From assembly GCF_027887165.1 (NCBI RefSeq), contig NC_077230.1:34485351-34549350 (forward strand): DNA of 64,000 nucleotides. Reading direction: 5' to 3'. How positions within the stretch are numbered: position 1 is the stretch's first letter; the number at the start of each line of letters is the position of its first letter. This DNA comes from Monodelphis domestica (taxonomy: Eukaryota; Chordata; Mammalia; Didelphimorphia; Didelphidae). Below, piece after piece: positions 1,189 to 60,372 of the stretch. The notes under the pieces are model-generated. The model searched no databases. It was given only the letters and a program-made list of their open reading frames with translations, and was not told where the DNA came from. The position numbers and the translations under genes are program-made.

Positions 1189-1296
1189 TATCCGTGTATT
1201 TGACCAGATTATTAAAATAGGTGACATCAATCTAATTGGATTGGATGAAGCAGAAATCGTCTCTACTTTTAAAAAAATGGACGATTCTCCTTTCCA
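1189..1296 (+). CDS. Unit A exon 3: middle of PDZ domain
   Basis: A 108-bp exon with acceptor TTTTTCAG and donor GTAAGT. It starts by completing a codon (TG|T) and ends in phase 2. The peptide begins [20 protein letters not shown], which aligns with the PDZ segment IQVNDQIVEVDGISLVGV as I recall it from neurabin and spinophilin. It is identical base for base to 56849-56956 in unit C. Confidence 0.82.
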
Positions 1297-1636
1297 GTAA
1301 GTAAATTTTCCCACATTTCTTTAAGATGCAGAGATTGCTAGATGATTGTTTTTGATTTGGAAATTTCTTTAGCAATGTGTTCAAACAGAAAAATTGGGGA
1401 GAAAGAAAGCCTAATTAACATGTTTAAATAGTTTCTCTTTTTGTCTTCTTTTGCTAAGAAATGACCCTCTTTTTTTCTGTTCAGCAGTTCACAAGATATT
1501 TTAGGACCCATTTGCACCTTCCTTTCTGAATACTCTATCACATCTCAAGCAAACCCTTGATTTTCATTTGCATTTATTTTTAGTTAATGAATTTTTATTT
1601 TCTTGGCAAATAATGCTCCTTGAACCTGAAGAGGTT

Positions 1637-1667
<31 letters not shown>

Positions 1668-4600
1668 GTAAGAATGAAAGCTTAGCTGAATTTCCCCATT
1701 CTGCTCTTTGCATGGCTATGTCTTAATCCAATGTACATAAATTAAATGTGGATATTTTGTACCTAGGATTGAAATTGGCCGCGAACCACCTGAAGTGAAG
1801 TCAGAACTTATCGAACTCCTCGAGTTGTCAGAGGAAAGGAAGAAATATTTTATGGATTCGCTCATAGTACAGGTATTATGTGAATCAAATAAAAAAATGC
1901 AGAAACGCAAAATTCTTTCTTTTTTTATCATAACAATATTAAAATAAAATTTTTGTTCTTTAAAACGTTTCCTTTCCTACTCTTCAGTAACTTCATCTTA
2001 ATTTATTACATACTTTTTTATTGTTGCTCTTTTATGCAATTTTATCAATGTCTCTGAGATTTACATTCTAATCTTCTCTGATGTACTCCAACCTTCACCA
2101 CTGAATTATCATTTGTAGTATAGAGAATGAATTAAGCAAAACTGAACAATAAATACAGCAACTGAATCTGATAGTTTTGCTCCTTTCTGAACAACGGAGA
2201 TATATACATGTGTGTATGTGTATGTATATTTTTATATCTCTAGCTTTTGTCCCAGTCTAAGATTTTCCATTACAATTAGTCAGAGGATGGCAATCTTTTA
2301 ATGCTGCTTTAATTTACCTTAGTTTTAAAGAGCCTTCTGTTTCTGCTTACTTTACATTATTTAATATGGGTTTTTTAATGTCTTGTAGAATTCTTATTGT
2401 TAATTTCAAAAACTTAATAATATCTCATTATATAATATATCACAGCATTTGTTCAGGTTTTCCCAAATTAACGGACACTTTGTATTCAGACAAAGAATGT
2501 GTAAGTGTACACATATTCCCTTGATTTCCTGCCTTTGATGACTTTGGGGTTTCACTTCTATTCTAGTTGCATTGATTTTGTTCGTGTTAAATCTTTCTCA
2601 GTAGTGCAAAATTCCTATTTTTTCTTTTATTATGATCACAAACCCCCTAGTTTTTTTACCATCAATATGCCTCACAAATATTGGTCTAAGAGGTCTTATT
2701 CCTGTTGTTTTTCTAATTTTGAATGCTGTATGGGTATTGGTTGATATTAAGGTTGTATATGCAACTTGAATTCATTATGGTAAATTTTATAGCCCTTTCC
2801 TATTCAAACTTTCATTTGTATCACATGATTTCCAGTTTTTCTCAGGCCTTCCAGAATACAGAATCCTTCCTCTCTCATTTTTGTTTTTGGGTTTTTGAAC
2901 ACCTGGATTGCCGAGTTAATTATCTTCTGGGACTTCCTCATGGTAGAATATTTTATGAACTCTTAATTATTGTCAAGTAATCCTGAGTAATTTTATTAAT
3001 TTTGAAGGTTCAGTTTGAGGACCTGTTAATTTTAGACCTCTTTTATTATTCTTGTTTTTAACATTTCCATTAAGATTACTTTTCACAACAATCTCTGACC
3101 AACAATCTTTTTTCTTATGTCTTTCTGTATCCTATCTCTAAGGCTTTCCCCAAAATGCTGGTCTACCAATCTGTAAGCCCCTGGAGGTGAAGGAATGTTT
3201 TATCTTTATATCCCCAGGACAACACACGGACTTGCACTTTTTAGATGCTTAAGAAATTATGATAGAATTAGTTGTTCATGTTGTTATGCTGATGCATAAG
3301 CAGGCTCTTGCTTTTTATTCTGTGCTATTTTGCTAGATGTTTTGGCAAACTCTTTAAAATGTTTTACTATAATTTTGAAATGACCATCCTTCCTCTAATA
3401 ATGATAATGTCTTTGGAAGAAAGATCAAAGAATATATTTAATCTTTCAAAGTGTGTATATGGGTATATTGGTATATATTTCATTTTGCAAAAAGTATAAA
3501 AGTATTTACTACTGCCTCCTTAAAACCTCTTTCCTATCCAATTATGAAATCTTTAAACATTAGCACATTAGGAGAGTGGATTTTGTTTGTTTATTTTAAG
3601 CATGTTCTTGAGATTTCTTAGCTTTAGGCCTATATTGTAATTACACTTTCTAAACATTTTCTCCATTTAAAGGAAAAAATTAGAGATATCACTATTGTGA
3701 GAGGACAAGCAAGTATTTGTAGAAGTCCAAGAGTACCATGGTACTGGATGGCCAGGTATATATATATGTGTATATATAGGTATAAAGATATATATGTAAG
3801 CTTTTATTGAATATGTAAACTAGTGGTTTTTTTAGACAAAACTTAGTGAAAGGTTAATAATAAAATAACAATATGCTTTTGCCTCTAAATTCCATTTACT
3901 GGGAAGATTTCCAAATTGGAGACTCAATTTAAAAAATGTATATATTCAGTGGGTTTTTTGGATAATATTTTCCTGATGAGGAATGGCCTCATCATTTCTG
4001 GCTTATAAATATATAGAATGAAATAATATAATGCATTAAAATAAGTAAATATCAGGAATAGAAGAAATCTCGAAACATCTTGATACACTTTGATGTATAG
4101 CAAATAGAACAGATAAAAACAAAAACAAAAAGAATGTTTTTTTTAACTTTACCTTCTGTCCTATAATTGAAGCTAAGTGTCAGTTCCAAAGCATAAGAAC
4201 CAGCTCTCCTCCCACTACTGCTGCTGCCACCCACCACCAGATCTTAGCAGTGGTTTCTCCTCCCCCTGCATGCTCTTGGGAAGAGTGCTCAGCTGCAGTC
4301 TCCCACTGCTATTTCTGATTCAAGTGTCTGCACAGAGGGTGAGATTCCCGAATTTTTGGCCAGTCTTTTCCCCACTCCAGGTGGGTTTTTGAGCCTGTGC
4401 TAGCCATTTTTCAATGAGGAAAAGTGACACCATGCTATTCAGCACCACCCCCTTTTAGTTTATAAGCTGAATTTCTTAAACTGACACTTGGCACCCGGCT
4501 TGCAACTCAGGATTTTTTTCACAGGAAAGGGGACCCCTCTGCTGTTTTTTTTTTGAGAGCACATTAACACAAATCAATGGATTTTAGATTTTATTTTTCT

Positions 4601-7600
4601 GCCTCCTACCCAAAACATCGAGGACTAATCTTTCTTTCATATGAAAATATGCTATTGTTCTCCCTTGAAGTTTTGCCCTACTTTGAATTTACTCTTTAAA
4701 TAAAATCCATTCAGTCTTCCCTTTTTTTTTTTTTTGGGAGGAAAAATGCTTTTACAAAGCATGCTAGGTATTCTCACAGAACAGTTTGAATTGCTTGATC
4801 TCTAACTAGTGCATATTAGTTCTTGTTTTTTTTTTTACTAGCAGTTTGTATTTGCACTGCATATTTCCCATTTTGTTTGCTTCTCAAGAATATGTAACAG
4901 GCTAGGGGGCAGCTGGGTAGCTCAGTGGATTGAAAGCCAGCCCTAGAGACGGGAGGTCCTAGGTTCAAATCTGGCCTCAGACACTTCCCAGATGTGTGAC
5001 CATGGGCAAGTCACTTGACCCCCATTGCCTAGCCCTTACCACTCTTCTGCCTTGGAGCCAATACTCAGTATTGACTCCAAGAAGGAAGGTAAGGGTTTAA
5101 AAAAAAAAAGACTATGCAACAGGCTAGACTGCTTAAATTAGAGACCAAACTGAAATATTCTGACAAAGTGTTATGGGGTTCAGATGTGTACCCCTGGGGT
5201 TCAGGAAGGATACCTTTGGCAAGAATGCAAGACTCCAAAATTTAGCTTAAAAACAAAACGAGAAATTTATTAGTTTAGGAGGCAATGTTGAGAATGGCCA
5301 GGAGGATAGCAAGGTTGAGCAGCAAGATGGGGAGCAGTTCCTTGGGAGGACAGCATGAAAGGAAAGGCTGCTCCCCTAAGGACAGCATAGATGGAAAAGC
5401 TGTCCCCCCAGACGACATCAGTTCTGGGGATTTTGTACTCTTTACAACAGATGCTATGTCATGGTGTGGACATGACCTAGAGTGTTAATAATCACTTAGG
5501 CATTTGGTGGGGTTGAGGTGGTCATCTGACTTGGGTCTGCCTGGAGGCATGAAGATTCCTTAACAAAAAGATATCTTGAGATATAGCCTGATAGGATCTT
5601 GGTGTAGCCTGGAGGTGCGTCTCTCTGTCCAAAATAGTTTGCCTGAGGTTCTTGGGGTACAGTGCCCATGTCAAAAGTTTTGATATTCTTAAATATTCTC
5701 AACACACAGAGTAGAGAATCCTGCCCATTGCTTCTATCAGAAATTTCCGAGTTCTGACAAATGAAGTGCAAATAGTTAATAAATAGTGCGGAGGGGAATA
5801 AACTTTAAAAGAGATCTGGAAGTTTATTGTTTCCTAACTACTTTTAATTTATTAACCTCCATGAGAGTTAAAAGAAGTCTATTGGAATTGGAGAAAAGGA
5901 TTTTTCACGTCCCTGCCTATGTATTTGTTACGCTTATTTGCTGATTGCTTGTGTTGAGTTAATTTTTTTAAAGTTCATATGTTAATCAAATCAATATCTT
6001 TCTGATATACTGAATCATTTCAAGCTAATGTTTTTGCCTATTAGATATATTCTATTATATTGATTTTTGTACCTTTCCCCTCTGACTGTACTGAAGAACA
6101 TCATTATGAAAGCCCATAAACACCTTTTTCAGTGGCAAAATCATAACTCATTAGGGGTGTGCTGCATTTGTCACATAGATAATGGATGGACTTCATCACA
6201 ACTGGTTACAACTTGTATACAACCTTTAGAGAATTTAATGAGCTAAGAATTTCAATTGCAATTTTAAGAGGTCTACAGAAATTACTTTAGATATCTAGGA
6301 GATTTCTGGAATGATATTTAAAATATATATGCATACATATATTTTAAAAAATGTTGAACTAAAAGGTAGAGAACCAAATAGATGTTCCTACCTAGCCTAG
6401 AAAGGCTAAGTGACTTGCCCAAGTTAATACCACTAATTAGTGGCAAGTTACAACTAGGTTCTAGAACTAGAACTTGAGTCCAAATCTCTTTAATTCCAAG
6501 ATGGTTTGATTGCCAGTTGTATGAAACTGCTACCTTTTCTTCCACAGTAACCTGAAATTTGTTATTGGGGCACTGAAAATATTAATAGAAGAAGATCAGG
6601 GATGTAGAAAAGACTTCCAAGCTATCTTTGAGCAGGTAAGACAGCACAGTTCCTCCCCATTAATCAAGTTTTATTGAATGTTAGTTGTGTTCACAGTGAT
6701 AAAAGTGGTGGAAAGCAAAGCAGTCAGTGAGAATGGTGCCCATAATAATGCATGAAATAAATGCTTCCTATTTCATTCATCCATTCTTTTGATCAGTCCA
6801 AACAAAACTTTTCAATCTTACTAAAACTCTTCTTGGCCTAAGAGGACTGTTTTATGATAGGTGAATTGACCAAAACTCCCATATCACTACTCTCTGCCTA
6901 GTTCTACTTATGACTCTTTAGAAAATCCAGTATGGAAATCATTTGGGAACCCCAGCCTACTACTACTACTAATCCATGAATTGTGTCTACTTGATCAAGA
7001 GAAAGGATCATCGGCTGGGGTATCCTTCTTCCTTGCTTCCCTTACTCCGTTGCAGCTATTAACTACTCTTACGTCTTAAGATGTGAATCAGTAACTTTCT
7101 TCCTTCTGAAGTGAAGAAGGCCCACCAGGCTTTTTTTATTATTATTTTCTCTGTGAATGTGCCTCTGAAGTCTGCTAGAATGTAGGCCTTACAATCGATT
7201 TCCCCTACTTTTATGCTATCATTGTAACTACTAATTGAAGTACCTCTGGATGTGTGCAAAATGCTGCTAAGCGCTGGAGACATAAAGAGAAAAAATGAAA
7301 CATTTCCTGATCTTGAGACACTCTTACTCGATACTCTAAGTGGAAAGTACAACATTTAAAATAAGGTTCAGCTGAAGCACAAGATGGAATGCTTCAGAAG
7401 TCCTGGGGTCTCAGTGGTAGAATGGATGGAATGGATAGCAAGCGCCATTTGGAAATGATTTCACAAAGATTAGTTAGACTGGTTCTGCCATCTATCACAT
7501 CAATAAATTCTTTTTGTATTTGAGGATTAAACCCAGTGTCTCGGTCACATATTATCAAGGCTTTCCTGTTGTTATTGGATAAAGTCTAAACCCAGTACCT

Positions 7601-10600
7601 TCCATACTCTGACACCAGAGGGTTCCATACTTAATTCCCAGAGTACCATGACATAAATTTTTTATTATATATATATGCATATATCTATATCTATATCTTT
7701 GTAGTCATATAAATCTTATATACCCAGAGCTTAGCTGAGGACCAGAAGACCAGACATGGAAGAAGCTCTTAGTAGTGAATATCATTTTTCCTTTTTTCTA
7801 TACACATGTAAATCTGTGTGTCTGTATATACATATATATGCACATAAATGCATGCACACATTTATTTATATATGTGTATGTGTGTATGTGTCGATATCTA
7901 TACCTCTATCTAAGGCCAGGTTACTTACTCATCAGACCTGCCCTAACATTCTTCTAGTTTGCAAAAGGGCTTGTCACTGTAATTTCTCAGCTATTATGGT
8001 ATTTCCACTGACTGTTTTTGAACATCTCTTGGAGTCCATTTTACTAAATTACAATCCTCCTAGAAGCAGAAACTCTCTTTCCCCCTGTATATACAGAACT
8101 ATGCAGGAAGAGAAGCTTCATTTTGTAGTGTTAGGAAGTGATATGTATTGAAGTGGTCCCCCTGATGTCCATCCTGGATGTCTGAAGCTCACCAGGTCAG
8201 TAACATCTTACTGCTTTTGGCAGCTTCCTGCAACTAAATGGCAGTGAAGGTGTCACCTTGCCTTGAAAAACACAATTCTTAACTGGGAGAGCTTTTAAGC
8301 TTTGGATTCTATCCCTAACCTCATTCCTATCTACATGATATCTCTTTCCCTCTTCCCATTCCCATCCATGTCCCCATCTCAGTTCCCAAACCTATCCCTG
8401 TCTCTAATCTCATGTAAATCTCTCGTCCTATCCTGATTGGTTTTACTCAATAGCTACTAGTCATGGAATTTGTGCATATGTTTTTGAATGTAATAGATCT
8501 GAAGGGGTCATTTGAGAATAAAGAGGTCAGATAAGTGGCTAGCAGGAATAAATGAGATGGTTGTGACTGTTGGAGAGGAAAAGGATTGAATAACGTGTAA
8601 TTAATAGATTTATTTTGGTTCATTTGGTAAATTTCAGGCTAACATTTTTCAAGACAAATATAAAGACATGAACACATACAAAGTGAATATGGAACAGAAA
8701 CCTGATGAATCAAATAAAGAAGGCACATTTTTACCATTGGCCCCAGAAGAAGAATTATTACTAGAACAATTTAAAATAAAACCTAACGAGATAAAAAATG
8801 AAGATTTATCACCAGGGCAATTATTAGCCCAAGGGGATTTCAATTCAGGTAAGACATATATCCTTGCTCAAAACATTTGACCCTAAAGTTTTCTGATAGA
8901 AAAGAGAAATTTGGAACAAATGTTTCTATCACTCACCGAATCTCTGGTCTCTATTCCTTTTCCCTTCATATCTCTAATAATGAGAATGCTAGCTGCTTTA
9001 TAAGGCTTTCTCAACTATTGGTGATCCCTCTCTTGGTGATTGAACTATAAGGGACCTTGGAAATATTCTACTATAACATTTTAATTGCTATAGAAATCTA
9101 TCCTATATGTATGTCAGAATGTCATTTAGCTTCTGCCTCAAAATATGCCGTGATAGGAAACTCATTTTCTCAACATCCAGGCCACACTATTGCTAAATTA
9201 CTTAAGCTTTTAGAAAAGATTTCAGTACAATTTTTTTTGCTCAGGCTTTTTTTTTATAATTTAGTCCTTTTCCCTTCTTTTGAAATAATACAGAAAAAGA
9301 TCTTGTTCCTCTTTCCCTATTACTATCCATTTGACCTATAAAATCAACTTATTTTCCACCTAAGACTTTTTTTTAATCTCTATGATCATGTTTAGCCTGA
9401 AGACAATCTTTATATGATTTCTTATTACATCGTTGGGACATGGTTTTGTTTAGAGTCTATTATCCATCCTACTTTAATGACATCCATTTTGGTTTATCAA
9501 CATTCTGTTGGTCTCATTGCAACAAAATCTTTTTTTTTTAATTCAATTACTTATAGGAATAATTTTGGCCATTTCTTTTGACATTTTAAAATTCAGATAC
9601 CCCCATCTCCCTTTCCCTACCTGAGGGGGTGAAGAATCTGATATAGGTTATACTCATACTATTATGTAATACCTATTTCCATATGGTTCCCATCATGATA
9701 GACACATAACACACATGTTCAATAGAAATCTCATGAAGATTTATAATATAACTTATAATTTATAATATAACTATTATAGTGGAAGATGTCAAGTTTTGAT
9801 CTACACTCAGATTTTTTTTTTGTAGCTTCCTTGACCATTGATAGTATGTTATTCATGTGTTACCTTGGAAGCTTAATGATAATGATTTAGTCCTTCACAG
9901 TTGATCATTGTATAATATTTCTGTTATAGTCTCTAGTTATAGTTGTTCTGCTCACTTTTTCTGAATTCATCCTGTTCATTGTTCCTTATGGCATAATAGT
10001 AATCCATTACAACCATATTCCACAGCTTGATCATTCAACCACTAAATAATGGACAACCCCTCAGTTTCCAATTCTTTGCCACTATAAAAAGAGCTGATAA
10101 TAATATTTTGGCACAGTTAATTCCTTTTATTCTATCTTTGATCCATTTGGGTGAGATTGTTGTATAGACCTTTGGGTATTGTTTCATATAAGTCTCTAGA
10201 ATGGTTGTATCGATTCACACTATCACCAATGAAGTTTATTAGTGTTCCAATTTTCCCACCTCCTCTTCAACATTTATCATTTTCCATTTTGGTCATGTTA
10301 GCTAATCTGAAGGGTATGAGATCATTTTGCAGAGTTGGCTTAATTTTCATTTCTTTCATCAATAGTGATTGGGAATTTTTTAAAATATGGCTATGTAAAG
10401 TTTTAATCTCTTCTGAGAAATGCCTATTCAAATCCTTTGACCATTTCTCAATTGAGGAATGTTGTGTATTATAAATTTGACTCAGTTCTCTTTATATTTA
10501 AGAAATGAGACTTTTATCAAAAATTGCTATAAATTTTTCCTCAGAATTTGTTTTTTCATTTCTAATCTTAAGTACATTTGTTTTATTTGTGCGAAACCTT

Positions 10601-13600
10601 TTTAATATAATGAAATCAAAATGCCCTTTTAATCAAGTATGCCGATGATTTATTTATTTTATTTTTTCATAAAACAAACTATTTGTCTTATTTTATTAGT
10701 TCTATGGTTTTCTTACTTTCAATCTATTCATCCCTTGCTTGATTTTCATGATTTCCAATTTGCTGTTTAATTGAGGATTTTTAAATTTGTCCTTTTCTAG
10801 GATTTTTAGTTGTATCACCAATTCGCTTATGACCTGCTTTTTTTCTACTTTACCTGATATAAGCAATAAGAGATGTGAATTTTCCTCTAAGTACGGCTTT
10901 GGCTACATGCTAAAAAATTTGATATGTTGTCTCCTTATAATCATTGTCTTTAATGAAATTATTGATTGTTTCTATGATTCATTCTTTGACCCATTTATTC
11001 TTTAGGCAAAAATTTGTTTATATCTATCATATGCCATACGCCATAAATTTATTTATTGGCAAATAGAGAAGGTTTCCTATTTTAGCTATAAATATCACTT
11101 GTATAAATTGTTCATTAGAAAACACCTTTTTCCTGGGTGCCATCCATTACTTGCATTCCTTTTGCACTGTGAATCTGTGAACATTTGGAGTATCACTGTC
11201 ATTGCTAACAGAAGGAAATCTGGTTCAGCCTTATGAATCTGAGATCTGGAAGAATGAATACTGGTGAATTGAGCAACAGTTGGAAAATGAATGCTGTACT
11301 TCAGGGGCTGACTTTTTTTTGGCTGCCAAGTACCAACAATTAATATGATTGTTGTTCAGAGAATATTAGAACCTCTAGTGTGAGGGCTTGCTGAACACTT
11401 TTCAGGGCTGCTTATCTACCTTTGGTGTCTACTTGTCACTCAGCTCTCACCTGTGGTTCCAAAAAGTTGTAGCATGTGGAGCAGCCTGTTAAAACTGAAC
11501 AGATGGGTTAAGTTAGGTTGATATCTACTCCAGGCTTGTGAAGACCTCCTCCTGGAATAGGTGGATGAGAAAATTTGCTTCAGTAGCCATGAATGTAGCT
11601 GAAGTAAGCACTGTGGAGTGCGTAGAGTTTGGTTGGACATCTAAGACACTAAAGTCATTTAGGTTCAGTGTCAATCAACTAGGTTCAGTGTCAGTTATCC
11701 AGACTTTTGTCTTGCCAAAGGATTTAGATGATTCTGCAAGAAAGAGTGAGGCTGACAATTTTGTGCAACTCACTTAAATCCAATTCATACACAAGTGAAG
11801 ATATTACTCTGTGATGTCACTGGTACTTTTCAAACATAAGGATCACCACCACCACTGCCAACTGATTAATCAACATTTTTGACTGTCTCATCCTTTTAAG
11901 TCTTCTTCAATCTAGCTTTACTTGTTTTAAACTGCCCTTGCAGCGGGACTAGTATTTTCTTGGTAGATATCCTAGATCATCAGTCTTAGAAGGAACCTCA
12001 AAGACCACCCACTTTAATCCCTTCATTTTGTAGGTGAGAAAAATGAGGCCCGGAGAAGATATTCAGATAGTTACCTTCCCAGCGGTGACTTCATGGCTTC
12101 TGGCTCTAAAATCAAGGCCAAAGGTAGGTTCTTCACTTTATAAGATGTCTAAGCCTTGGTCAGCAATAGTAACCAATGAAAGATTGCTGTTGTCCCTTGC
12201 TAATCCTAGTAAAATATTTGTGTACTGTTGTACTCATTGAATTATTTATTTTTCTTAGAGACCCAAATAAAAAAAGAAAAAGAAGAAGAAGAAATAGTAG
12301 TGGAGGAAGAGATTATTAGCACTGGAAAACCTACAGAGGGAAAGGCTAAAAAGGGATTTTCCTGGTTCCGGTAAGAGATGTACTTTTTATATATGGATAA
12401 CAATATTCTTAATAAACAAAACATTTTATTTCTCCTGGAATTTACCTCTTTGGCTACTGTTTGCTATGTTTTTTGCCCCTTTCTACAAAAGAACTTCATT
12501 ATTTATATGAATTTTCTCAGTTGTTCACATCTTCCTCAAATGGGTGCTGGCATAGAGTAAAGGTGTCAAATTCACAGTTTATGGATGTGACCCAGAGAGA
12601 TCCATTTCTTTTTGAGTCTGATAATAACAACTTAGTGGGAAAAGTATAGGACATGGAATCTGAGTTATCTGCATTCAGACTGGAGTTTTATCACCTAGTC
12701 ATGTGTTCAAATTCAAGTATTTTCTGATCAATAGGTTACAGACTTCCCATCTATAAAATATTACAAGTTGACATCTAGCGTTACTTCAGATCTAAATCAG
12801 TGACCCCCTCGCTCCTTACAAGACAAATCATGTATTAGTTGTGGTTAATGTGGAGGAGGAAGAAGTAGAGAAATGATATTGTGCCATACGCACACATATT
12901 TAACTTAACTGGCTTCCATATCTAGTTTTATATTTTTACCTATAGCGCCAAATTTGATCTTGCCCCTTCTCTAATACATGTGCTGACATAGCACGTATCC
13001 TACAAAAAGTGTAACTCCAAACTCTTTGAACATGTAGCTTTGTCTTTTTTTTCAGAATTGAAATTCATGAAATTTTTATAGTGTGCATCTATTTAAGATC
13101 TTTTTTTGTGTCATAGTAGAATGTATTTTTGTGTTTTAATAATTATTTCCCTTTCAAATGTTGTATGATTCTAGCAATATCAAAGAACGCAAGCTGTGGA
13201 ACTTCTTTCATTTTAAAAAACATGACAAACAAGTAAAGAATGTGCACAAGTGGGAAGAAATTGATCAAGAGGTAAATTTTCATTATGTTAAATTTATCAA
13301 AGATTTAAGTTTGTTTCCCCATTTAAATTACTAGAGAGTGAGCTTTTTCTTGAATTAGAAAACTATAATTTACCTTGGATTGAGGAGTTAACATTCTGTC
13401 ATAATTAATAATCAGTATTAATCAGGAATAAAATTACCCGAGTAAGGAGCCAAAGTACCATAGCGGCAACTGTTTGGCCTTGAAGTCACTTTTTTGTTCC
13501 CAGAGATCATTCAAGAACCTCTCTCAAGAAAAGGGAATGATTAAGAACTCTTAAAACATTTGAATTCTCTGTATTTGGATGTTCTAAGGACAAAGGATAA

Positions 13601-16600
13601 TTGATTCAACTTTTGGCCTCAGAATATTGTTGGCTGAAAATTTTCTAAAATGATGGCACAGAGTATTGAAATACACTTAACCTAGAGAAAAGTGCAAGTT
13701 GAATTGTTATGGGCTGATGCAGGTAGGAAGTGATAACATATTAGGATAATTTTCCCTCCATGAGACAGAAGGGGTCTCTGAAGGGGCTGTACAATATTTA
13801 AAAAATAACAGGTAGGTAAAATGGTAAAAGTTTACCAAGAAATACCACTGTCGGTTGTTGGCAAAATAAGAGGAGAGATTGCATGTGTATGTCTTGATTG
13901 ACTGTGCCTGTGTTACTGAGCAAAAAAAGAACATGAGAGCCACAGATGGGCCAATATGACAATGAAGGAAAATAATAAATGTTGAAGGGGATATGGCAGA
14001 ATTGGGACACTAATGCATTGCTAGTGGAGTTGTGAATTAATACAAGCATTCTGGAGGGAAATTTGGAATTATGAGCAAAGGGCTCTAAAAGAACACATTT
14101 GATCCTTTGATCCAGCAATACCACTGCTGGGTTTGTACTCCAAAGAGATAATAAGGAAAAATGCGTATACAAAATATTCATAGCTGAGCTCTTTGTGGTG
14201 GCAAAAATTGGAAAATGAGGGGATGTTCCTCAATTAGGGAATGACTAAACAAATTGTGGTATATGTTGGTGATGGAATACTATTGTGTTATAAGGAATGA
14301 TGACCTACTTGATTTCTATATGAACTGGAAAGACCTCCATGAACTGAAGCAGAGTGAAATGAGCAGAACCAATCGAATGATATACACTGAAAGTGAAACA
14401 TTGTAGAACTATCCAACATAATGAACTTTACTACTCGCAGCATACAATAGTCCAGGACATTGCTGAAGGACTTATGAGAAAGAATCCTATCTATATTCAG
14501 AGAGAGAACTATGGGAATAGAAATGAAAAAGAAAAACTTAAGACTTAACACTTAGAACTTGTTTATATGAATATATGATTTGGGGTTTGAGCTCTATGGT
14601 AAAAATGAATAATATAAAATTAGATATCAAGGGATAACATTTGTACAATCCAGTAGAATTGCTTATTGCTTCTGGGAGGGGAAAAGGTAAAGAAAATGAA
14701 TCATATAAACTTGAAAAAATATTAAAAATAAAAAAAGAATATGAGGTATGAGGTCAATTGAGAAAATATCTATTGATCTTCACACACATATTTTTACACA
14801 TACATAAATAAATAGATACACATGTACATATGATTAAGTCCAACTAAAGATTTCATCACCCACCAGGCATTAGGAGGTATTTCTGACCTGCCCAATTTTG
14901 TTTGTGCTCTAGCTAGCAAGAATAAAATTCTGAATTGCCTCACATTTGGAATTCTTTTGAATCCTCCAAGGATGGTCCCATCTCTTAATAGATACTGAAA
15001 AAGGACCCCCACCACACTGTCTAATGGAGATGGGCATATTTTTTTCAATTTTCTTTTACTTATAAAATAATGAATGGCAATAAAATACAAGCTTTCCTCC
15101 AAACCTAAAGGTGACAACATTGAATATATTTAGTATTTGTAATCATGATGGTCAAATTGCCAAAATCTTGTAAAAAAAGTAAGATTTGTTTCCATTTACT
15201 TTCTAGAAATATTACCCATCAGTAGAAATAGACAAAAAACTAGGATGCACTTTAATAGTTCCTGACCAGTTTCTCAACTGATATGGTAACCTCAATTGGA
15301 AAGTTATGGATATCAGACACTGGAAGATGGAATTGGGGACTTGAGGGTTCTTTGCCTTTATAAGAACCATCACTAGATTCTAAAGTTAGCTAACACCTAG
15401 CTAATCTAACTTCTAGTCTTAGAACCTGATGATGACTCTTCCTCTGCCTCCCATGACCCAGAAACCCCAGCAGCTCCTACCAGGCCAAGTTGCCTCAACT
15501 TCCTTCCTGGGTGGATATTGGGTAAAGTGGCCTGTGTTCCTGGCCAAAGAAGAGACAAAACTACCTGGGTAAAGGTAGATTTTAGTTCAATTTATTTTGG
15601 CCATGGAGAATAACTGAATACACTTTGGATGTAGATAATTTTCCTCTCATCTTGTCTTAACTTGGATTAGGTGGAAACATTTTAGTATTAATACATTCCC
15701 TTACAAAGTCATCACTCCTTAAGTGAAAATATATCGAGTATTTTGCCTGTTTTAGAATACTGCTATTTTTAAAAAGGCTCCAAAGTATTTTCATTGCAAA
15801 AAATAAAGTTTTTTCCTGGTTTACAAAACTCACTTCAGATCTCTTGTTGTTCTGTGAATTTTTGACATACAGATGAAAGAAAAGGGTGGTGGGGATAAGA
15901 AATACAGCAGCCTTGAAAAGCAAAAATTATAAAAAAACGAACTGTGAAAGGAGGGATGATTTTGGAAAAATGGTCTCTAAGGCTCCTTTGAGTTTTTGCT
16001 GTCTATGGTTATATTAACATATAGCCATGGAAGCTTTTTAAATATTGTGTCTCTTGATCTCTAGGTATTGGATGATTACTGTCCTTATTCTACTGAAGCC
16101 CCTAAAACATTGCCAACACAGTGGACAAATATTGAAGTTGGTAATTGGTTATGGAGCATTGGAATGGAGGAGTATGTTGTAAAATTTTATTGTAAAGGAA
16201 TAAATGGTGGAAAACTCCTTATACTGGACAATCGCTCGCTAAAAGTAAGTATGCTAATCTAGGTGATATAGATGAATGTTTACAAAAATATAAATTGCCT
16301 AGATTAACATATGAAGAAATAGAATTCTTAAATAATCCCATATCAGAAAAAGAAATTGAACAAGCCATCAAGGATCTCCTTAAGAAAAACATCCCCAGGG
16401 CCAGATGAATTAACAAGGGAATTCTATCAAACATCAAAGAAAAGCTCAAAGTTCTTTTGGAGAAGAACAAAAGATCAAGGATATCCAGGGAAATAATGAA
16501 AAAAAAAAACGCAAAGGAAGGTGGCCTTTGTAGTACCAGATCTCAAACTATGGTAGCCTTTTTAGTACCAGATCTCAAACTATACTATAAAGCAGTGGTC

Positions 16601-29698: not shown

Positions 29699-29795
29699 AG
29701 AACTGGAATTAAAAAATGAAGAGATGGAATTGAAAAGAATAATAGAAGAAGAAGGTCAGAAATATAAAAAAGACCTCAAGGAAATTGATAAAAGT
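29699..29795 (+). CDS. Unit B exon 6-like: coiled-coil segment
   Basis: A 97-bp open segment after CTTCTGCAG, one base plus 32 codons, phase 2 in and phase 0 out as in unit A exon 6. The product is Leu/Glu/Lys-rich (ELKNEEMELKRIIEEE...) and could form a coiled coil as in neurabin. Old L1 sequence ends about 25 bases upstream of the exon, and a long AT palindrome starts 7 bases after the donor GTGAGA. Confidence 0.65.
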
Positions 29796-30916: not shown

Positions 30917-31049
30917 ACTAACAACTTGATAGAGAAACTTAAAAAATATGTGAACATATCTGAAGTGAATATCGGAAATCAGCCTGAGGAGACAGTAAAA
31001 GAAGATATAACAACAGGGCAATTATTGGCCGCAGAGGATATCAGTTTAG
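30917..31049 (+). CDS. Unit B exon 7-like: acidic linker
   Basis: A 133-bp segment (acceptor ATTTCAG, donor GTAAGA), phase 0 in and phase 1 out. It ends in GQLLAAEDISL, matching [11 protein letters not shown] of unit A. It lacks the 26-residue block present in the A exon. Confidence 0.66.
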
Positions 31050-44266: not shown

Positions 44267-44369
44267 ATATCACAATTAAAAAAGAACAAGTAGAAGAATT
44301 ACTAGAACAGGAGATCAGCAGTGGCAAACCTGCAATGGGAAAAGCTCCAATGCAGTTTTCCTGGTTTTG
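44267..44369 (+). CDS. Unit B exon 8-like: linker
   Basis: A 103-bp segment (acceptor ATTCTTAG, donor GTAAGA), phase 1 in and phase 2 out. It keeps the SSGKP and FSWF positions of unit A exon 8. Flanking intron sequence is also similar to that around the A exon. Confidence 0.7.
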
Positions 44370-45168: not shown

Positions 45169-45265
45169 CAATGTCCAAGGATACAATTGGCGGAGTTTCT
45201 TTTGTTTTAAAAAACATGATAAACAAGTACAGAATGTGCGCAAGCAGGAAGAAACTGACCTAAAG
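45169..45265 (+). CDS. Unit B exon 9-like: basic segment before SAM
   Basis: A 97-bp segment with the same length and phases as unit A exon 9 and the conserved KKHDKQV core. The following intron is only 176 bp, against 2793 bp in unit A; its two ends match the two ends of the A intron. Confidence 0.72.
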
Positions 45266-45479
45266 GTAAATTTTCATTATGTGAAATTTGTCATTAAGAT
45301 TTATGTGCGTATCTCCATTTTAATTACTAGGGAATGAGCTTTTAAAATAATCTCTGAGACCCTTTTGCAGTTTTCACTGTCAAGGGTTATATTAGCATAG
45401 GCCAATCTAAGCTTTTAAATATTGTCTCTCTTGATCTCTAGCTATTTGATGACGCCTCTGCTTCTTTTATACCCCAAAG

Positions 45480-45617
45480 CTGCTGGTGTCTGACTGGACA
45501 GAAACTCAAGTTGGCCATTGGTTAAAGAGTATTGGAATGAAAAAATATATCCTGAAATTTGATTATAAAAGAATAAGAGGTCAAGAACTTCTTGAATTAG
45601 ACAATGATGCATTAAAA
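45480..45617 (+). CDS. Unit B exon 10-like: SAM domain, in frame only from an alternative acceptor
   Basis: From the acceptor at the position homologous to unit A (exon start 45442) the frame breaks and stops within the exon. From the AG at 45478-45479, preceded by a pyrimidine-rich run, the exon is 138 bp, phase 0 at both ends, and reads SDWTETQVGHWLKSIGMKKY and the rest of SAM helices 1-4. This would also remove the residues that correspond to the lead into SAM in unit A. Use of this site is inference. Confidence 0.5.
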
Positions 45618-46863: not shown

Positions 46864-46953
46864 TGCATTGGAATCACTAAGAAAAGAGATTGCAAGAAAA
46901 TCCTTAAGGGAAAAAGAAAATTCAACAGACAGAAAAAAATTAATACAATCTAA
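46864..46953 (+). CDS. Unit B exon 11-like: SAM helix 5 and stop
   Basis: After TTTTCCAAAG, 29 codons and TAA. It reads CIGITKKRDCKKILKG and a basic tail, keeping the Gly before the last SAM helix that unit A has lost. The C-terminal tail differs entirely from that of unit A. Confidence 0.65.
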   Translation, partial: CIGITKKRDCKKILKGKRKFNRQKKINTI

Positions 46954-47138
46954 CAATTAAATATATCAAAAAGATAATTCTGGAAGATACAGCAAAAATG
47001 AGAAAAAATATAATTACATGATATTTACCTTTAATCTACTACTTCAACATATTATTTTGATATAGAATAATTTTTCATTGTTGAAAAATTATTAATATCA
47101 TCCATAATAAGCATTACACATATTATACTGTATTTCTG

Positions 47139-47144
47139 AATAAA
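47139..47144 (+). terminator. Possible polyadenylation signal of unit B
   Basis: An AATAAA hexamer 186 bp after the unit B stop codon, in sequence homologous to the region beyond the minisatellite of unit A. The matching A position reads TATAAA-like sequence, so the signal is intact only in B. Cleavage here is inferred. Confidence 0.4.

Positions 47145-48409: not shown

Positions 48410-48411
<2 letters not shown>

Positions 48412-48484
<73 letters not shown>
48412..48484. repeat. (TG)n microsatellite
   Basis: Seventy-odd bases of TG with one C interruption. Confidence 0.95.
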
Positions 48485-48487
<3 letters not shown>

Positions 48488-49384: not shown

Positions 49385-49560
49385 CCTTACCTTCTCACTT
49401 AGAATCAATGCTGTGTATAGTTTCCACAGCAGAAGAGTGGTAAGGGCTAGTCAATGGGGTTTAAGCGACTTGCCCAGGGTCACCAAGCTAGGAAGTGTCT
49501 GCGGACACATTTGAACCCAGGACTTGGCTCTCAATTCACCGAGTCACCCAACTGCCTCCA
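49385..49560 (-). mobile_element. Marsupial SINE, antisense
   Basis: Antisense SINE: CTTACCTTCTCACTTAGAAT, GCAGAAGAGTGGTAAGGGCT, GACTTGCCCAGGGTCACCAA, ending at ACCCAACTGCCTCC. Moderately diverged. Confidence 0.82.
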
Positions 49561-52390: not shown

Positions 52391-52768
52391 AATATAAAGA
52401 AAAGAATGTGAGTCAATGTGCCTTGTACCACTTACCATAAACATTAATTAGGCTATAGCAAAATTGTATATACCTTTAGAATTCCTCCCCTTCCATTAGG
52501 TATAATGCTGATTTTTCCCCCTCAAATTTAATCAACATACAGGAGTAAATTTGAACATATGAGATACATTGTGAAAGGAAATATCATTAGTGTGTATCTT
52601 GGGGTGTAACACTAAGATAAAAAGAATTTTTAAGGGGTGTATCAATTAATGTCAAAAGACTGATCAAGAAAACTAATTTTTCTAAATAAAATTAACACAC
52701 CACTGTACTTTGAAATTATTTATATTTTGTTGCCCATGCACTTAAATTTTTTTTTTATTTTTTTCAAG
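52391..52768. other. Sequence upstream of unit C exon 1
   Basis: No clear TATA-Inr-CpG promoter. It ends in a strong pyrimidine tract and AG, which suggests exon 1 as drawn may be an internal exon. Confidence 0.4.
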
Positions 52769-52887
52769 TAAAGATCGAATATTTTCTTGTTCAAGAAGCT
52801 TGTTGATAGCTTTTAATCTTCTCTGTGAAAAAATGATGCAAAGAAGAGTCCAGAACCTCGATTTATTTTCTTGTCAAATAGACAAAG
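52769..52887 (+). CDS. Unit C exon 1: lead into PDZ
   Basis: The frame is open from a strong pyrimidine-tract acceptor (AG at 52767-52768) through the ATG pair at 52833-52838 to donor GTAAGC, ending in phase 1. If translation starts at the ATG, the part before it is 5' UTR. If an upstream exon is spliced on, an extra 21 or so residues are encoded. The segment after the ATG aligns with the neurabin residues just before PDZ. Confidence 0.62.
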
Positions 52888-54742
52888 GTAAGCTTTAACT
52901 ATAAAATTGCTTATTTCATACATGTATGCCATTTTTCATCAATTTTATTTTTATTAATTTGTTTTTCTCATCAATAAACATCAAATATAGAAAATATTAA
53001 ATGATTAGGAATAATTCCCAAATGAAGATTAAGGAGTGTAAGTTTAACTGATAAATATTTTTGATATCATAACTTTTAAAATAATTTCACAAAGGTGAGT
53101 TATAGCAATAAGGCACTATTTCCATTGATATTCTTGTCCTTGTTTAGTGAAAAATAATATGATAGAAGATGATCTAACCATACCAGATACCAAAGTGTAT
53201 TATTATAAAGTACTTATCTTCAAACTAATCTATTATTGATGAAGAAAGAGTAGTGGATCCGTGGAATAGAGTAGGTACACACAATATGCACAGTAGAAAT
53301 GACTTTAGTAATGTTGTGTTTCTTACATGCAAAAATCCATATGTTAGGGTCAAGAACTCACTGGGTCAAAAACTGCTGAGAAAACCAGAAAGCATTTTGG
53401 CAGAAACTAGATGTAGACCAATGCCGCACATCATGTATCAAGATAAGGTCAAAGTGGCATTCGATTTATGCATTCAGGGTAATGCCAGATTTAAATTAGG
53501 GGGAAAAGAATTATCAAATAAAGACAGAGAACATTATAGGAGGTGCAATGGATCATTTTCATTACCTTTAAAAGTTTTCCACACAAAACCAATATAGCTA
53601 AGACTAGAGGGAAAGAAGAAAAATGGGGAAAAATTTAAAGATCTGATTAAGGCCTCATTTCTCAAAGATATAGAGCACTGGATCAACTTTATGAAGAATA
53701 CAGGCTGTTCCCCAATTCATAGATCCTAAAATTATATGAATAATCAGTTTTCAGATGAAGAAATAAAAACTGTCTCTAGCCACATAAAAAAGCACTAAAT
53801 CACTATGAAGAATACAAATTTAAACAACTCTTACTTTTCATGCCTATCAAATTTTCTTAACGAGACAGGAAAGGAAAATGAAAAATGTTGGAGGTGATGG
53901 GGGAATATTTGAGACACTAAGGTACAGATGGTGGAATTGTGAACTGATTCATCTATTCTAGAGAACAATGTGGACATATGATCAAGGAGCTATGCAATTG
54001 TGCATATTCTTTGACTTGGCAATATCACGACTAAGACAGTATCCCAAAGAGATTAGAAATTTTTAAAAGATGAAACAAAAATCCCTATATGTACAAAATA
54101 ATTTATGGCACTTCTTTTTTGTGTTGAAGAACTTAAAATTTCAGGGATAACATTCAATTGTGAAATGGCTGAAAAATTTGTGGTATGTGATTGCAACAAT
54201 ATTATTGTGCTACATGAAATGATGATTAAGATGATTTCAAAAAACCTGGAACACTTATATAGAACTGATGCAAAATGAAGGGAACAGAAGCAGAACAATG
54301 GGTGCATGAACAGCAATGCTATGCAATGATCAACTGTAAATGACTTTGCTATGCCCAGAAATACAAAGATTGAAAGACAGTTCTGAAGAACTGAAAAATG
54401 TTATCCACTGACAGTGGAAAAGGTGATGGAATCTAAATGCAGAGCAAAACATATTTTTTTTACTTTATTTTCCTTTTTTCCTGGTATGTTTTATTTCTCA
54501 ACATGATGAATAAGGAAGGAAATATTTTTTACATGACTGCATATGTATAATCTTTATCAAATTGCTTACCTTTTTAATGAGGTTGGAGACCAGGGTGAGC
54601 AGGAAAGAATTTGGAACTTAAAATAGATTTTATATGTCCTTAGAAAAAATTTTAATCATTAAAAATATTTTAATGTGCTTACATGCTGAAAGTTAGAAAG
54701 TTCAGCAAAATCATTGGTCTAGGGCAGACTGTAAACAGAGTC

Positions 54743-54808
<66 letters not shown>

Positions 54809-57800
54809 CTAATTATTAAGGAAAAGATACCAGTAAAGTATAAGTGGATGGCTTATAATTCCATTGCAAAGCTAGAGTGACCAGGCCAACTGTACTGGGA
54901 GGAAATTTTATTCTTACTGTTGCTTCAGATGTTTTAGGCTTTCATTATTATTACTATTATTATTTTTGTATTTATAGGTGACAACGAACTGGGGCTTTGT
55001 ACTTGTATCTTCTTTGATCCAGCAGATGAGGATGGAAAGGAACCAGGGGTTTTTATAACTGAAATTATTGAAGGAGGTGCAGTTCACAAACTTGGATGGT
55101 GAGTTTGGTTTTGTAATTTTATAAGAATTGACTTTGTAGGGAGGATTTAACATCATTCTAAAAAGGGTTAATATTGTAAACATGGAAAGTGACTACACAA
55201 ATAAAATCTCTGAAAAATACAGAAATATCAACTTTAAAAATATTGTCATGACCAAGCTAGTAAGGAAATGGAATTGGCTTGGAAACAAAGATTCTATAAT
55301 TCCACTCCAACTTGGTCTGTAAACTATGACTTTATTCTTGATCATTGAGAAGGTCTTTAATAATTGCCATAATGAGCCCATTGTAAACATGTGCCCAGCT
55401 ATTTCCAAATCAGGTCAAATTAACAAGTATTTATAAATCTATACCATTCCAGAACCTGTGCTCTCCATGAAGGGATATAAAGAAAGTGGGAAAATAGTTC
55501 TTGATTTGGAGAAATGAAAAACTGAATTGACTAGGCAACAAACAAATTACTATTGTGTGCAGAAAAGATCTATACTAAATAAATGTGAGAAAATCTGGGT
55601 GTGGTGGATACTTTGGTTGTATTAGAAAAAATGGTATCCATGAGACACTGGCAACTATCTTCAGAGATTATTGAAATTTGACTATACAATAAAATAATTC
55701 CTGAATTGAGAGAGGGCTTCCTAGATATAGGAATGTAGGAATATACATTTAAAATATTACTATAAACTGCCCAAAGTGAATCCTTGAGAAAGGAAAAAAA
55801 TAAGAAATGCAAATAGGTTGCCAAATCATAACTTTAACCTTGTAAGAATTTACTATGCAACTGGGGTCAAATGGTACCCTCTATGTCCTTGCTCATGATG
55901 TAATTTTGGACTTTAAAATAGAATTCTTCCTGAGATGACACTCTGTTACATAGAACTGAAAGCAAAAAACGCCATCAGGCTTTCTGTTTCAAAGCCTGAG
56001 GCTCATTACTTCTTCATCCCCAACTCACTTAGCCCAGATGGTTTTAGAATTTTTTCCTGCTTCCTAGATTGTAACAGAATTGATTTCTTTAGCTGCCCAT
56101 CCTGAATATCCCAAATAAATGGTGGAAATTTTCTCCTCTTAACCTCCCAAAGTTGTTTTCTTTTCCTCAGTTTCTATGATGACATTTATCTGTTTATTAT
56201 CACCCAAGGTCTCTACAATAAAAATATCAACTAGAAGTTTCCTTCTGAATTATCGTCTCCTTACTCAGTCTTCAGTCAGTGGGGGCATTGTCTGATACCT
56301 CAGAAGAATCATTTGTTTTAGTTTCTGCAGATCCTATTGACTTTTTGAAGAATATTAAAATTGAAACAATACTCTGATAATTGTTTGTAGGAGGGCATCT
56401 GTGTTTGTGGATGATTTCTCTTGGATCCTTCTCACTGTGTTTTCCAAGATCTGCCAAAGTCCTTTCCTTTTTCAATCTCATTTCATTATTGAGACTTAGC
56501 CAGCTGGAAAGGCTTGGAGTACAGACCCAGTAATGAACACTAATCATCCTTGAAGCCTACTTAAAAAAAAAAAATATTCAGGGATGAATCCCTGGAAGAA
56601 TCCCCAGACAGGCTGCACGGTAATGAAATTATTGAGACACACCAGCCCTCTAAGTCTTCTGATTAATTTGTAGAGAAGTGGTGACTGAAAAATTTGTAAG
56701 TGGCAGCCATTATAGTAATGGTATGATGAGTCATTGAAGTCTATCTCTTAAATTAGTACCATATCTTCTAATCATACACATGCATTGGACTTTTAGGTCA
56801 TAAAAATCTTCAATGTAATTTTAATTACTATGCAATTCTATTTTTCAGTATCCGTGTATTTGACCAGATTATTAAAATAGGTGACATCAATCTAATTGGA
56901 TTGGATGAAGCAGAAATCGTCTCTACTTTTAAAAAAATGGACGATTCTCCTTTCCAGTAAGTAAATTTTCCCACATTTCTTTAAGATGCAGAGATTGCCA
57001 AAACTATTAACAAGCACATGAAGAAGTGTTCTACATCTCTTATAATCAGAGAGATGCAAATCAAAACAACTCTGAGGTATCACCTCACACCTAGCAGATT
57101 GGCTAACATAACAGCAAAGGAAAGTAATGAATGCTGGAGGGGATGTGGCAAAGTAGGGACATTAATTCATTGCTGGTGGAGCTGTGAACTGATCCAACCA
57201 TTCTGGAGGGCAATTTGGAACTATGCCCAAAGGGCGACAAAAGAATATCTACCCTTTGACCCAGCCATAGCACTGCTGGGTCTGTACCCCAAAGAGATAA
57301 TGGACACAAAGACTTGTACAAAAATATTCATAGCTGCGCTCTTTGTGGTGGCCCAAAACTGGAAAATGAGGGGATGCCCATCAATTGGGGAATGGCTGAA
57401 CAAACTGTGGTATATGTTGGTGATGGAGTACTATTGCGCACAAAGGAATAATAAAGTGGAGAAGTTCCATGGAGACTGGAACAACCTCCAGGAAGTGATG
57501 CAGAGCGAGAGGAGCAGAACCAGGAGAACATTGTACACAGAGACAAACACACTGTGGTATCATCGAACGTAATGGACTTCTCCATTAGTGGTGGTGTAAT
57601 GTCCCTGAACAACTTGCAGGGACCCAGGAGAAAAAAACACCATTCATAAGCAAAGGATAAACTATGGGAGTGGAAACACCAAGAAAAAGCAACTGCCTGA
57701 ATACAAAGATTGAGGGGACATGACAGAGGATAGACTCTAAATGAACACTCTAATGCAAATACTATCAACAAAGCAATGGGTTCAAATCAAGAAAACATCT

Positions 57801-57907
57801 AATGCCCAGTGGACTTACGCGTCGGCTATGGGGGGATGGGGGGGGGAGGAAAAGAAAATGATCTATGTCTTTAACGAATAATGCTTGGAAATGACCAAAT
57901 AAAATAT

Positions 57908-57943
<36 letters not shown>

Positions 57944-58253
57944 TGCAGAGATTGCTAGGTCATTGTTTTTGATTTGGAAATTTCTTTAGCAATGTGTTCA
58001 AACAGAAAAATTGGGGAGAAAGATAGCCTAATTAACATGTTTAAATAATTTCTCTTTTTGACTTCTTTTGCTAGGAAATGACCCTCTTTTTTTCTGTTCA
58101 GCAGTTCACAAGACATTTTAGGACCCATTTGCACCTTCCTTTCTGAATACTCTATCACATCTCAAGCAAACCCTTAATTTTCGTTTGCATTTATTTTTAG
58201 TTAATGAATTTTTATTTTCTTGGCAAATAATGCTCCTTGAACCTGAAGAGGTT

Positions 58254-58284
<31 letters not shown>

Positions 58285-60370
58285 GTAAGAATGACAGCTT
58301 AGCTGAATTTCCCCATTCTGCTTTTTGCATGGCTATGTCTTAATCCAAAGTACATAAATTAAATGTGGATATTTTGTACTTAGGATTGAAATTGGCCGCG
58401 AACCACCTGAAGTCAAGTCAGAACTTATCGAACTCCTCGAGTTGTCAGAGGAAAGGAAGAAATATTTTATGGATTCGCTCATAGTACAGGTATTATGTGA
58501 ACCAAATAAAAAAGTGCAGAAACGCAAAATTCTTTCTTTTTTATCATAACAATATTAAAATAAAATTTTTGTTCTTTAAAACGTTTCCTTTCCTACTCTT
58601 GAGTAACTTCATCTTAATTTATTACATACTTTTTTATTGTTGCTCTTTTATGCAATTTTATCAATGTCTCTGAGATTTCCATTCTAGTCTTCTCTGATGC
58701 ACTCCAACCTTCACCACTGAATTATCATTTGTAGTATAGAGAATGAATTAAGCAAAACTGAACAATAAATACAGCAACTGAATCTGATAGTTTTTGCTCC
58801 TTTCTGAACAACGGAGATATATACATGTGTGTATGTGTATGTACATTTTTATATCTCTAGCTTTTGTCCCAGTCTAAGATTTTCCATTACAATTAGTCAG
58901 AGGATGGCAATCTTTTAATGCTGCTTTAATTTACCTTAGTTTTAAAGAGCCTTCTGTTTCTGCTTACTTTACATTATTTAATATGGGTTTTTTTAATGTC
59001 TTGTAGAATTCTTATTGTTAATTTCAAAAACTTAATAATATCTCATTATATAATATATCACAGCATTTGTTCAGGTTTTCCCAAATTAACGGACACTTTG
59101 TATTCAGACAAAGAATGTGTAAGTGTACACATATTCCCTTGATTTCCTGCCTTTGATGACTTTGGGGTTTCACTTCTATTCTAGTTGCATTGATTTTGTT
59201 CATGTTAAATCTTTCTCAGTAGGGCAAAATTCCTATTTTTTCTTTTATTATGATCACAAACCCCCTAGTTTTTTACCATCAATATGCCTCACAAATATTG
59301 GTCTAAGAGGTCTTATTCCTGTTGTTTTTCTAATTTTGAATGCTGTATGGGTATTAGTTGATATTAAGGTTGTATATGCAACTTGAATACATTATGGTAA
59401 ATTATATAGCCCTTTCCTATTCAAACCTTCATTTGTATCACATGATTTCCAGTTTTTCTCAGGCCTTCCAGAATACAGAATCCTTCCTCTCTCATTTTTG
59501 TTTTTGGGTTTTTGAACCCCTGGATTGCCGAGTTAATTATCTTCTGGGACTTCCTCATGGTAGAATATTTTATGAACTCTTAATTATTGTCAAGTAATCC
59601 TGAGTAATTTTATTAATTTTGAAGGTTCAGTTTGAGGACCAGTTAATTTTAGACCTCTTTTATTATTCTCGTTTTTAACATTTCCATTAAGATTCCTTTT
59701 CACAACAATCTCTGACCAACAATCTTTTTCCTTATGTCTTTCTGTATCCTATCTCTAAGGCTTTCCCCAAAATGCTGGTCTACAAATCTGTAAGCCCCTG
59801 GAGGTGAAGGAATGTTTTATCTTTATATCCCCAGGACAACACACGGGCTTGCACTTTTTAGATGCTTAAGAAATTATGATTGAATTAGTTGCTCATGTTG
59901 TTATGCTGATGCATAAGCAGGCTCTAGCTTTTTATTCTGTGCTATTTAGCTAGATGTTTTGGCAAACCCTTTAAAATGTTTTACTATAATTTTGAAATGC
60001 CCATCCTTCCTCTAATAATGATAATGTCTTTGGAAGAAAGATCAAAGAATATATTTAATCTTTCAAAGTGTGTATATGGGTATATTGGTATATATTTCAT
60101 TTTGCAAAAAGTATAAAAGTATTTACTACTGCCTCCTTAAAACCTCTTTCCTATCCAATTATGAAATCTTTAAACATTAGCACATTAGGAGAGTGGATTT
60201 TGTTTGTTTATTTTAAGCATGTTCTTGAGATTTCTTAGCTTTAGGCCTATATTGTAATTACACTTTCTAAACATTTTCTCCATTTAAAGGAAAAAATTGG
60301 AGATATCACTATTGTGAGAGGACAAACAAGTATTTGTAGAAGTCCAAGAGTACCATGGTACTGGATGGCC

Positions 60371-60372
<2 letters not shown>
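52769..60372 (+). CDS. Unit C: neurabin-like PDZ gene, exons 1-5 (3' part not found in window)
   Basis: Five exons (52769-52887, 54978-55098, 56849-56956, 58384-58489, 60290-60372) give the complete PDZ domain and the first linker exon. From the paired ATGs at 52833 the product reads [18 protein letters not shown], a fair match to the neurabin segment KRVEKLELFPVELEKDE, then a PDZ domain with ELGL as carboxylate-binding loop, [12 protein letters not shown] and GDINLIG. From intron 2 to intron 5 it is a near copy of unit A. Exon 6 and later exons are not seen before the window ends, and sequence after 60831 no longer matches unit A, so the gene may continue outside or be truncated. Confidence 0.72.
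53155..54660 (+). mobile_element. Old 5'-truncated L1 in unit C intron 1
   Basis: Plus-strand ORF2 C-terminal remnants (for example GATGATCTAACCATACCAGA and CAGTGGATCC-like sequence), a 3' UTR and an A/T-rich end. Heavily mutated. Confidence 0.68.
54745..54807. repeat. (AT)n microsatellite
   Basis: About 62 bases of uninterrupted AT, 170 bases before unit C exon 2. Confidence 0.95.
54978..55098 (+). CDS. Unit C exon 2: first half of PDZ domain
   Basis: A 121-bp exon (acceptor TTTATAG, donor GTGAGT), phase 1 in and phase 2 out. It reads [20 protein letters not shown], then [19 protein letters not shown]. The ELGL loop and GVFITEI strand are standard PDZ positions. The matching exon of unit A must lie left of the window. 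Confidence 0.8.
56849..56956 (+). CDS. Unit C exon 3: middle of PDZ domain
   Basis: Identical to unit A exon 3 over all 108 bases, with the same splice sites. Its intron carries a young L1 insertion 42 bases after the donor. Confidence 0.8.
56983..57955 (+). mobile_element. Young 5'-truncated L1 with target-site duplication in unit C intron 3
   Basis: L1 body 56999-57939 with the last 184 codons of ORF2 open, a 3' UTR and a long pure A tail, flanked by 16-base AAGATGCAGAGATTGC repeats (56983-56998, 57940-57955). The encoded segment differs from the intact L1 at two residues. The empty site is seen in unit A at about 1323-1338, so it inserted after the duplication. Confidence 0.96.
58384..58489 (+). 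CDS. Unit C exon 4: end of PDZ
   Basis: A 106-bp copy of unit A exon 4, with one synonymous change (GTG to GTC). It carries the IGREPP motif and the charged helix after it. Confidence 0.8.
59785..59884 (+). repeat. L2-type 3' end (copy of 3165-3262)
   Basis: Carried by the duplication; a few substitutions from the left copy. Confidence 0.5.
60290..60372 (+). CDS. Unit C exon 5: linker exon
   Basis: An 83-bp copy of unit A exon 5 with the same splice sites and phases. Two changes from unit A both alter the protein (Arg to Gly, Ala to Thr). The donor again opens an AT microsatellite, longer than in A. Confidence 0.6.

Follow-up and report, generated by a model that had tools for sequence, protein, structure and literature searches.

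Neurabin is a scaffold protein of nerve cells, and the neurabins, encoded by two mammalian genes, are synaptic scaffolds of the phosphatase PP1. Two further families combine the same domains: in the Shank family a PDZ domain precedes a SAM domain, and in the CNK (CNKSR) family the SAM domain precedes the PDZ domain. According to PMC12185105, an RVxF-PhiPhi-R-W string that docks PP1 stands before the neurabin PDZ domain, the PDZ picks substrates for the phosphatase docked just before it, and residues L514, G515 and I516 contact the bound peptide. A stretch of 64,000 nucleotides from the opossum Monodelphis domestica (contig NC_077230.1, positions 34,485,351 to 34,549,350), hereafter the window, is best explained as carrying a cluster of tandem copies of a neurabin-derived gene, the product of which is probably a compact adaptor protein. 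As far as the letters allow one to judge, this gene appears genuine and is possibly undescribed.

Exons were found through peptide matches between parts of the window and with a neurabin-1 sequence, followed by alignment of the copies and placement of the borders. All twenty exons that a preliminary description had placed on one strand in three units were recovered, and they span the same limits, 1189 to 60372 (Table 1). Unit A holds nine exons, numbered 2-10 (1189-19178), unit B six, numbered 5-10 (29699-46953), and unit C five, numbered 0-4 (52769-60372). AG precedes every exon and GT follows it, with a stop codon instead of GT in the two terminal exons, and a single frame is open across all exon junctions within each unit. 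Equivalent exons agree in phase and their borders align between copies, as the preliminary description had proposed. Joining C0 and C1 to A2-A10 yields a predicted protein of 441 residues counted from the beginning of C0, or 420 from the first ATG, in line with the length of about 420 residues suggested earlier; it is a composite of units C and A.

Only PDZ and SAM exceeded the Pfam cut-offs in the spliced products, in the order first proposed and with SAM carboxyl-terminal to PDZ as in neurabin-1. The PDZ scored 4.6e-6 in the composite and 9.5e-7 in C, and the SAM 2.3e-9 in the composite (SAM_2) and 2.1e-12 in B (SAM_1). Among single-domain PDB chains, neurabin was the best match for both, which supports the proposed neurabin origin. 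The complete PDZ, whose score rises to 45.9 bits when C0 is included, matches neurabin-1 9gsu (E 5e-11) from query residue 20 onwards; six further neurabin or spinophilin chains follow at 36-44 bits, and the best other single-domain PDZ chain is DLG2 at 31.6 bits. Five DLG4 chains rank first (51-56 bits) because two or three PDZ domains are summed in them, the best single DLG4 domain reaching about 27. Compared on these PDB scores with other families, the PDZ lies nearest to neurabin. The SAM of unit B gives 46.7 bits with neurabin-1 2gle (E 2e-11), ahead of the multi-domain liprin-beta-1 (36.7) and of the next single-domain chain (29.3), and the SAM of unit A gives 36.4 bits with the same chain (E 4e-8), the next single-domain chain scoring 24.3.

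Among single-domain PDZ and SAM chains neurabin thus has a margin of at least 12 bits, and Shank, CNK and DLG were rejected as source families on single-domain scores. That the domains derive from CNK or from a different PDZ-SAM family, for instance Shank, is accordingly a reading to which we give hardly any credence. Shank has the same domain order and yields a weak Shank3 SAM match (19.4 bits for B, 22.3 for A); this lies 14-27 bits under that of neurabin, Pfam reports no ankyrin or SH3 domain in the spliced products, and no Shank PDZ appears among the 60 of 212 matches listed, so that Shank-type domains do not emerge as the closest relatives. CNK also holds a SAM and a PDZ, but in the opposite order, and its SAM scores 25.6 bits in the search with the B SAM. 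Only the multi-domain liprin and ANKS1A/EphA6 chains approach neurabin, and they do so for the A SAM.

The resemblance to PPP1R9A/PPP1R9B extends beyond the domain folds to a helix before the PDZ, an LG-Phi carboxylate loop and a GRE.P..SE tail, and the resemblance to neurabin-1 includes the SAM that follows the PDZ at the carboxyl end. C0 aligns to the helix that joins the PP1 string to the PDZ in neurabin, which we take to be ..EYELEKRVEKLELFPVELEK..; tblastn of a pre-PDZ stretch finds C0 with an E value of 0.017 in an 8-kb region and of 0.54 with a longer N-terminal query. The alignment to neurabin-1 extends from the helix before the PDZ through the domain itself and into the helix after it (z 22.6, reached by 0 of 1000 shuffles). 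Read from the alignment, neurabin L514, G515 and I516 correspond to L, G and L in the cluster PDZ, and I518 and G520 to T and I.

The remainder of the protein departs from the neurabins. The linker of about 210 residues, acidic and helical, had been described as a shortened neurabin linker; its similarity to the neurabin linker does not rise above shuffles (z 0.3 for A, 0.0 for B), so that no homologous coiled-coil linker was detected and mere shortening does not account for it. The cluster is therefore to be seen as derived from the PPP1R9 family and not as an ordinary member of it. It also differs in being tandem and in having a linker that changes at about the neutral rate. The PP1-docking string was not seen in C0, which was the sole relevant match when the string was searched by tblastn in 46960-54980, and further 5' exons may exist. 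A search with the actin-binding neurabin-1 N-terminus in three stretches gave no match on the + strand except C0. With the 5' end of A lying outside the window and that of C not located, the absence of the large N-terminus given in the preliminary description is no more than possible.

Coding is moderately supported by the sequence comparisons. When exons 6-8, together with the portion of exon 9 that encodes SAM, were mutated at the intron rate in 20,000 runs, neutral drift produced a mean of 6.7 stops starting from A (184 codons) and 5.3 starting from B (155 codons); none is observed, and the fraction of stop-free runs was 0.0007 from A and 0.004 from B. The ratio of non-synonymous to synonymous change (dN/dS) between A and B is 0.63 (0.42-0.98) over exons 5-10, 0.58 (0.36-0.89) over exons 6-10 and 0.44 (0.25-0.75) over exons 7-10, or 0.55 (0.36-0.85) with another alignment; for the SAM exons 9 and 10 taken by themselves it falls to about 0.28. 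Synonymous differences between A and B in these SAM exons (0.57 and 0.72) lie far above the difference in the neighbouring introns (about 0.16-0.18); the high SAM values possibly reflect few sites, or conversion from a more distant copy.

Other tests contributed less. Versions of the stop and length tests that count exons 5 and 10 (0 of 20,000 runs stop-free; 2.1%) were set aside, since they overstate the case: exon 10 is in frame by construction and the donor of B5 was chosen by phase. The gap test gave no support for coding. At a low gap penalty, 36 of the 42 gap openings in the exon alignments were not multiples of three, whereas intron sets matched in length averaged 29.4; these alignments were judged too fragmented for use. 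A filter for conserved pseudo-exons found none in 3727 intron bases, a result of little weight because its positive control caught just one of exons 6-9 (exon 7). A scan against viral contigs returned a single 12-residue match (L001), taken as chance.

Several observations weigh against a working neurabin-derived cluster, on the side of coding, of relationship and of completeness. In a length test, itself weak, four of the five internal exons 5-9 have a net length that keeps the frame, which 4.9% of intron sets equal, and so do three of the four exons 6-9, which 12% equal. In the linker exons 5-8 dN/dS is about 1.1, so that constraint on amino acids is visible in the SAM alone. Non-synonymous change over exons 6-10 amounts to 27.5%, against 19.0% in intron (p 5e-5), a figure that comes from alignable blocks, which favour conserved intron, and that may be low; set against the complete intron between them, exons 7-8 show a non-synonymous excess that is not significant (p 0.09). 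Such an excess also fits relaxed constraint. For A2-A3 alone, neurabin-2 is found with an E value of 0.84, behind an unrelated protein at 0.2, and for the A SAM the multi-domain liprin-beta-1 (34.7 bits) and ANKS1A/EphA6 (33.4) come within 1.7-3.0 bits of neurabin. The three units are tandem, as the preliminary description held, and they are not the complete copies that it implied: no unit is complete within the window, and no PDZ exon of B was found when the three PDZ exon peptides were compared with 20700-45400, where nothing was significant. Furthermore, a 4-base deletion behind the ancestral acceptor of B9 is a frameshift. Translation from this acceptor meets a stop early in the SAM region, and the frame of B9 fits only if splicing moves 38 bases downstream (to an acceptor before 45480 instead of before 45442).

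The near-neutral linker, non-synonymous change that equals or exceeds that of introns and the one frameshift would all be expected if the whole cluster were a pseudogene family with no product. We consider this unlikely in view of the stop-free exons 6-9 (P 0.0007-0.004), the low dN/dS of the SAM and a PDZ and a SAM that are recognisable across exon joints. A history in which frames were kept and the SAM was constrained as the linker drifted or was pushed agrees with the data, and positive selection is possible.

That A alone works, and that unequal exchange and L1 insertion have reduced B and the C fragment to decaying pseudogene remnants, is a far stronger contender, falling a little short of an even chance. 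Besides the linker ratio, the missing B PDZ and the 4-base deletion, it draws on old L1 debris that stops about 30 bases upstream of B5 and on the departure of C from A after 60831. It has to accommodate B exons 6-9 free of stops where neutral drift gives 5.3 (P 0.004), and a B SAM that is nearer to neurabin than that of A, unlike what a long-dead copy would show. From the sequence, unit A is the likeliest working copy, B appears to be an old duplicate and the 5' half of C a recent duplicate of that of A.

B could also dispense with a PDZ of its own if one 5' PDZ module were spliced in frame either to A5-A10 or to B5-B10. The phase 2 end of exon 4 fits the start of A5 as well as that of B5, the joined frame of C0-C4 and B5-B10 is open over 397 residues, and B retains open exons in spite of having no PDZ exons. 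Common descent alone, however, explains the shared phases, and this splicing requires skipping the terminal exon of A and bridging more than 25 kb, so that we hold it to be improbable.

Under the preferred explanation of a duplicated neurabin-derived gene, the units differ in age. The claim that duplication retained the introns agrees with 97.3-99.6% identity between A and C (1-4198 against 55659-60831) and with 81.0% identity between the introns of A and B, counted on 3659 aligned bases from nine blocks selected as alignable. The exons of A that precede A2 lie beyond the window edge, base 1 matching 55659 in C, which is 681 bases after the start of C1. A and C differ at 3 of 297 exon bases, with two residue changes. 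Mismatches between them number 3 over the first 1250 bases (0-1 per 250) and 0-10 per 250 beyond, and the drop from 99.6% to about 97% identity near 1250-1340 points either to gene conversion at a later time or to two separate duplications. C carries a 5'-truncated L1 (56983-57955) absent from A, 97.8% identical over 724 bases to the full L1, with a run of 30 A and perfect 16-base target-site copies at 56983-56998 and 57940-57955. Since C diverges from A after 60831 within a repeat, its linker and SAM are not visible; compared with A 4151-7600, the continuation of C shows only an inverted shared repeat and short weak pieces. Copies of a repeat lie at 60782-61015, 4852-5092 and 23895-24055, the second inverted relative to the first, and this repeat at the end of the A/C duplication may have mediated a rearrangement. 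A5 and B5 are only weakly alike.

The window is AT-rich (GC 28-38%, CpG observed/expected 0.05-0.26 per 4 kb) and has many L1 pieces, a composition that suits a marsupial. A minus-strand L1 at 34200-40300 (frames at about 34.3-39.7 kb) in the B6-B7 intron, whose ORF1 (345 aa) and ORF2 (1284 aa) are both long and open, is possibly a young element. A minisatellite (19236-20626), in which a unit of 41-42 bases is repeated about 34 times, starts 58 bases past the stop codon of A, and none is listed after that of B.

Table 1. Predicted exons of the neurabin-derived cluster and extent of the recent duplication.
Feature	Position	Strand	Content and remarks
A2	1189..1296	+	mid PDZ; AG/GT, phase fits; nucleotides identical to C2
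A3	1767..1872	+	end of PDZ and following helix; similarity to neurabin continues through the GRE.P..SE motif
A4	3673..3755	+	linker; AG/GT; entered in phase 0 and left in phase 2; copied in C4
A5	6548..6635	+	short helical linker; probable equivalent of B5, with the same phases; similarity reached by 7/1000 shuffles
A6	8638..8848	+	acidic linker; shares conserved borders with B6 but differs from it in length by 78
A7	12259..12370	+	linker
A8	13175..13271	+	linker
A9	16065..16244	+	first SAM exon; Pfam SAM in spliced product
A10	19077..19178	+	end of SAM, stop codon; 2gle match extends into it
B5	29699..29795	+	helical linker; donor picked among neighbouring GTs to suit phase
B6	30917..31049	+	linker
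B7	44267..44369	+	linker
B8	45169..45265	+	linker
B9	45480..45617	+	first SAM exon through shifted acceptor; exon from ancestral acceptor (45442) frameshifted
B10	46864..46953	+	end of SAM, stop codon
C0	52769..52887	+	pre-PDZ helix and first PDZ strand; possible start codon; phase joins C1
C1	54978..55098	+	PDZ carboxylate loop and second strand
C2	56849..56956	+	copy of A2; 0/108 bases differ
C3	58384..58489	+	copy of A3; 1/106 bases differs
C4	60290..60372	+	copy of A4; 2/83 bases differ, both changing residues
Recent duplication, A side	1..4198	.	partner 55659-60831
Recent duplication, C side	55659..60831	.	carries L1 insert absent from A

The domain composition suggests that the protein could act as a scaffold or adaptor. 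By analogy to neurabin, its PDZ would bind carboxyl-terminal peptides, and its SAM would oligomerise, joining the protein to itself or to other SAM proteins. The linker, which changes at about the neutral rate with the SAM held, would be a tether between two working domains. Since no PP1-docking string was seen, the protein may sequester or divert ligands of the neurabin type without bringing in the phosphatase. Ligand binding uncoupled from PP1 recruitment is a guess, which missing 5' exons could overturn, and use restricted to particular tissues, such as the germ line, the placenta or immune cells, is likewise a guess. It is very improbable that the array combines one PDZ 5' module with a choice of linker-SAM 3' modules, so that the PDZ adaptors could exchange their oligomerisation ends.

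No earlier description of such a gene was found among the literature matches listed, which accords with the initial view of an undescribed family, vertebrate protein and genome databases being outside this comparison; automatic annotation could already carry such genes as uncharacterised or neurabin-like. If the proposed explanation is true, a separate, fast-changing and tandemly duplicating branch of the neurabins would be a case of a scaffold reused outside its usual role. With a new linker and possibly no PP1 docking, it would provide a natural PDZ-SAM protein that separates ligand binding from phosphatase recruitment. If found only in marsupials, the cluster would be a candidate lineage-specific gene; if shared, it would represent a gene lost in other mammals.

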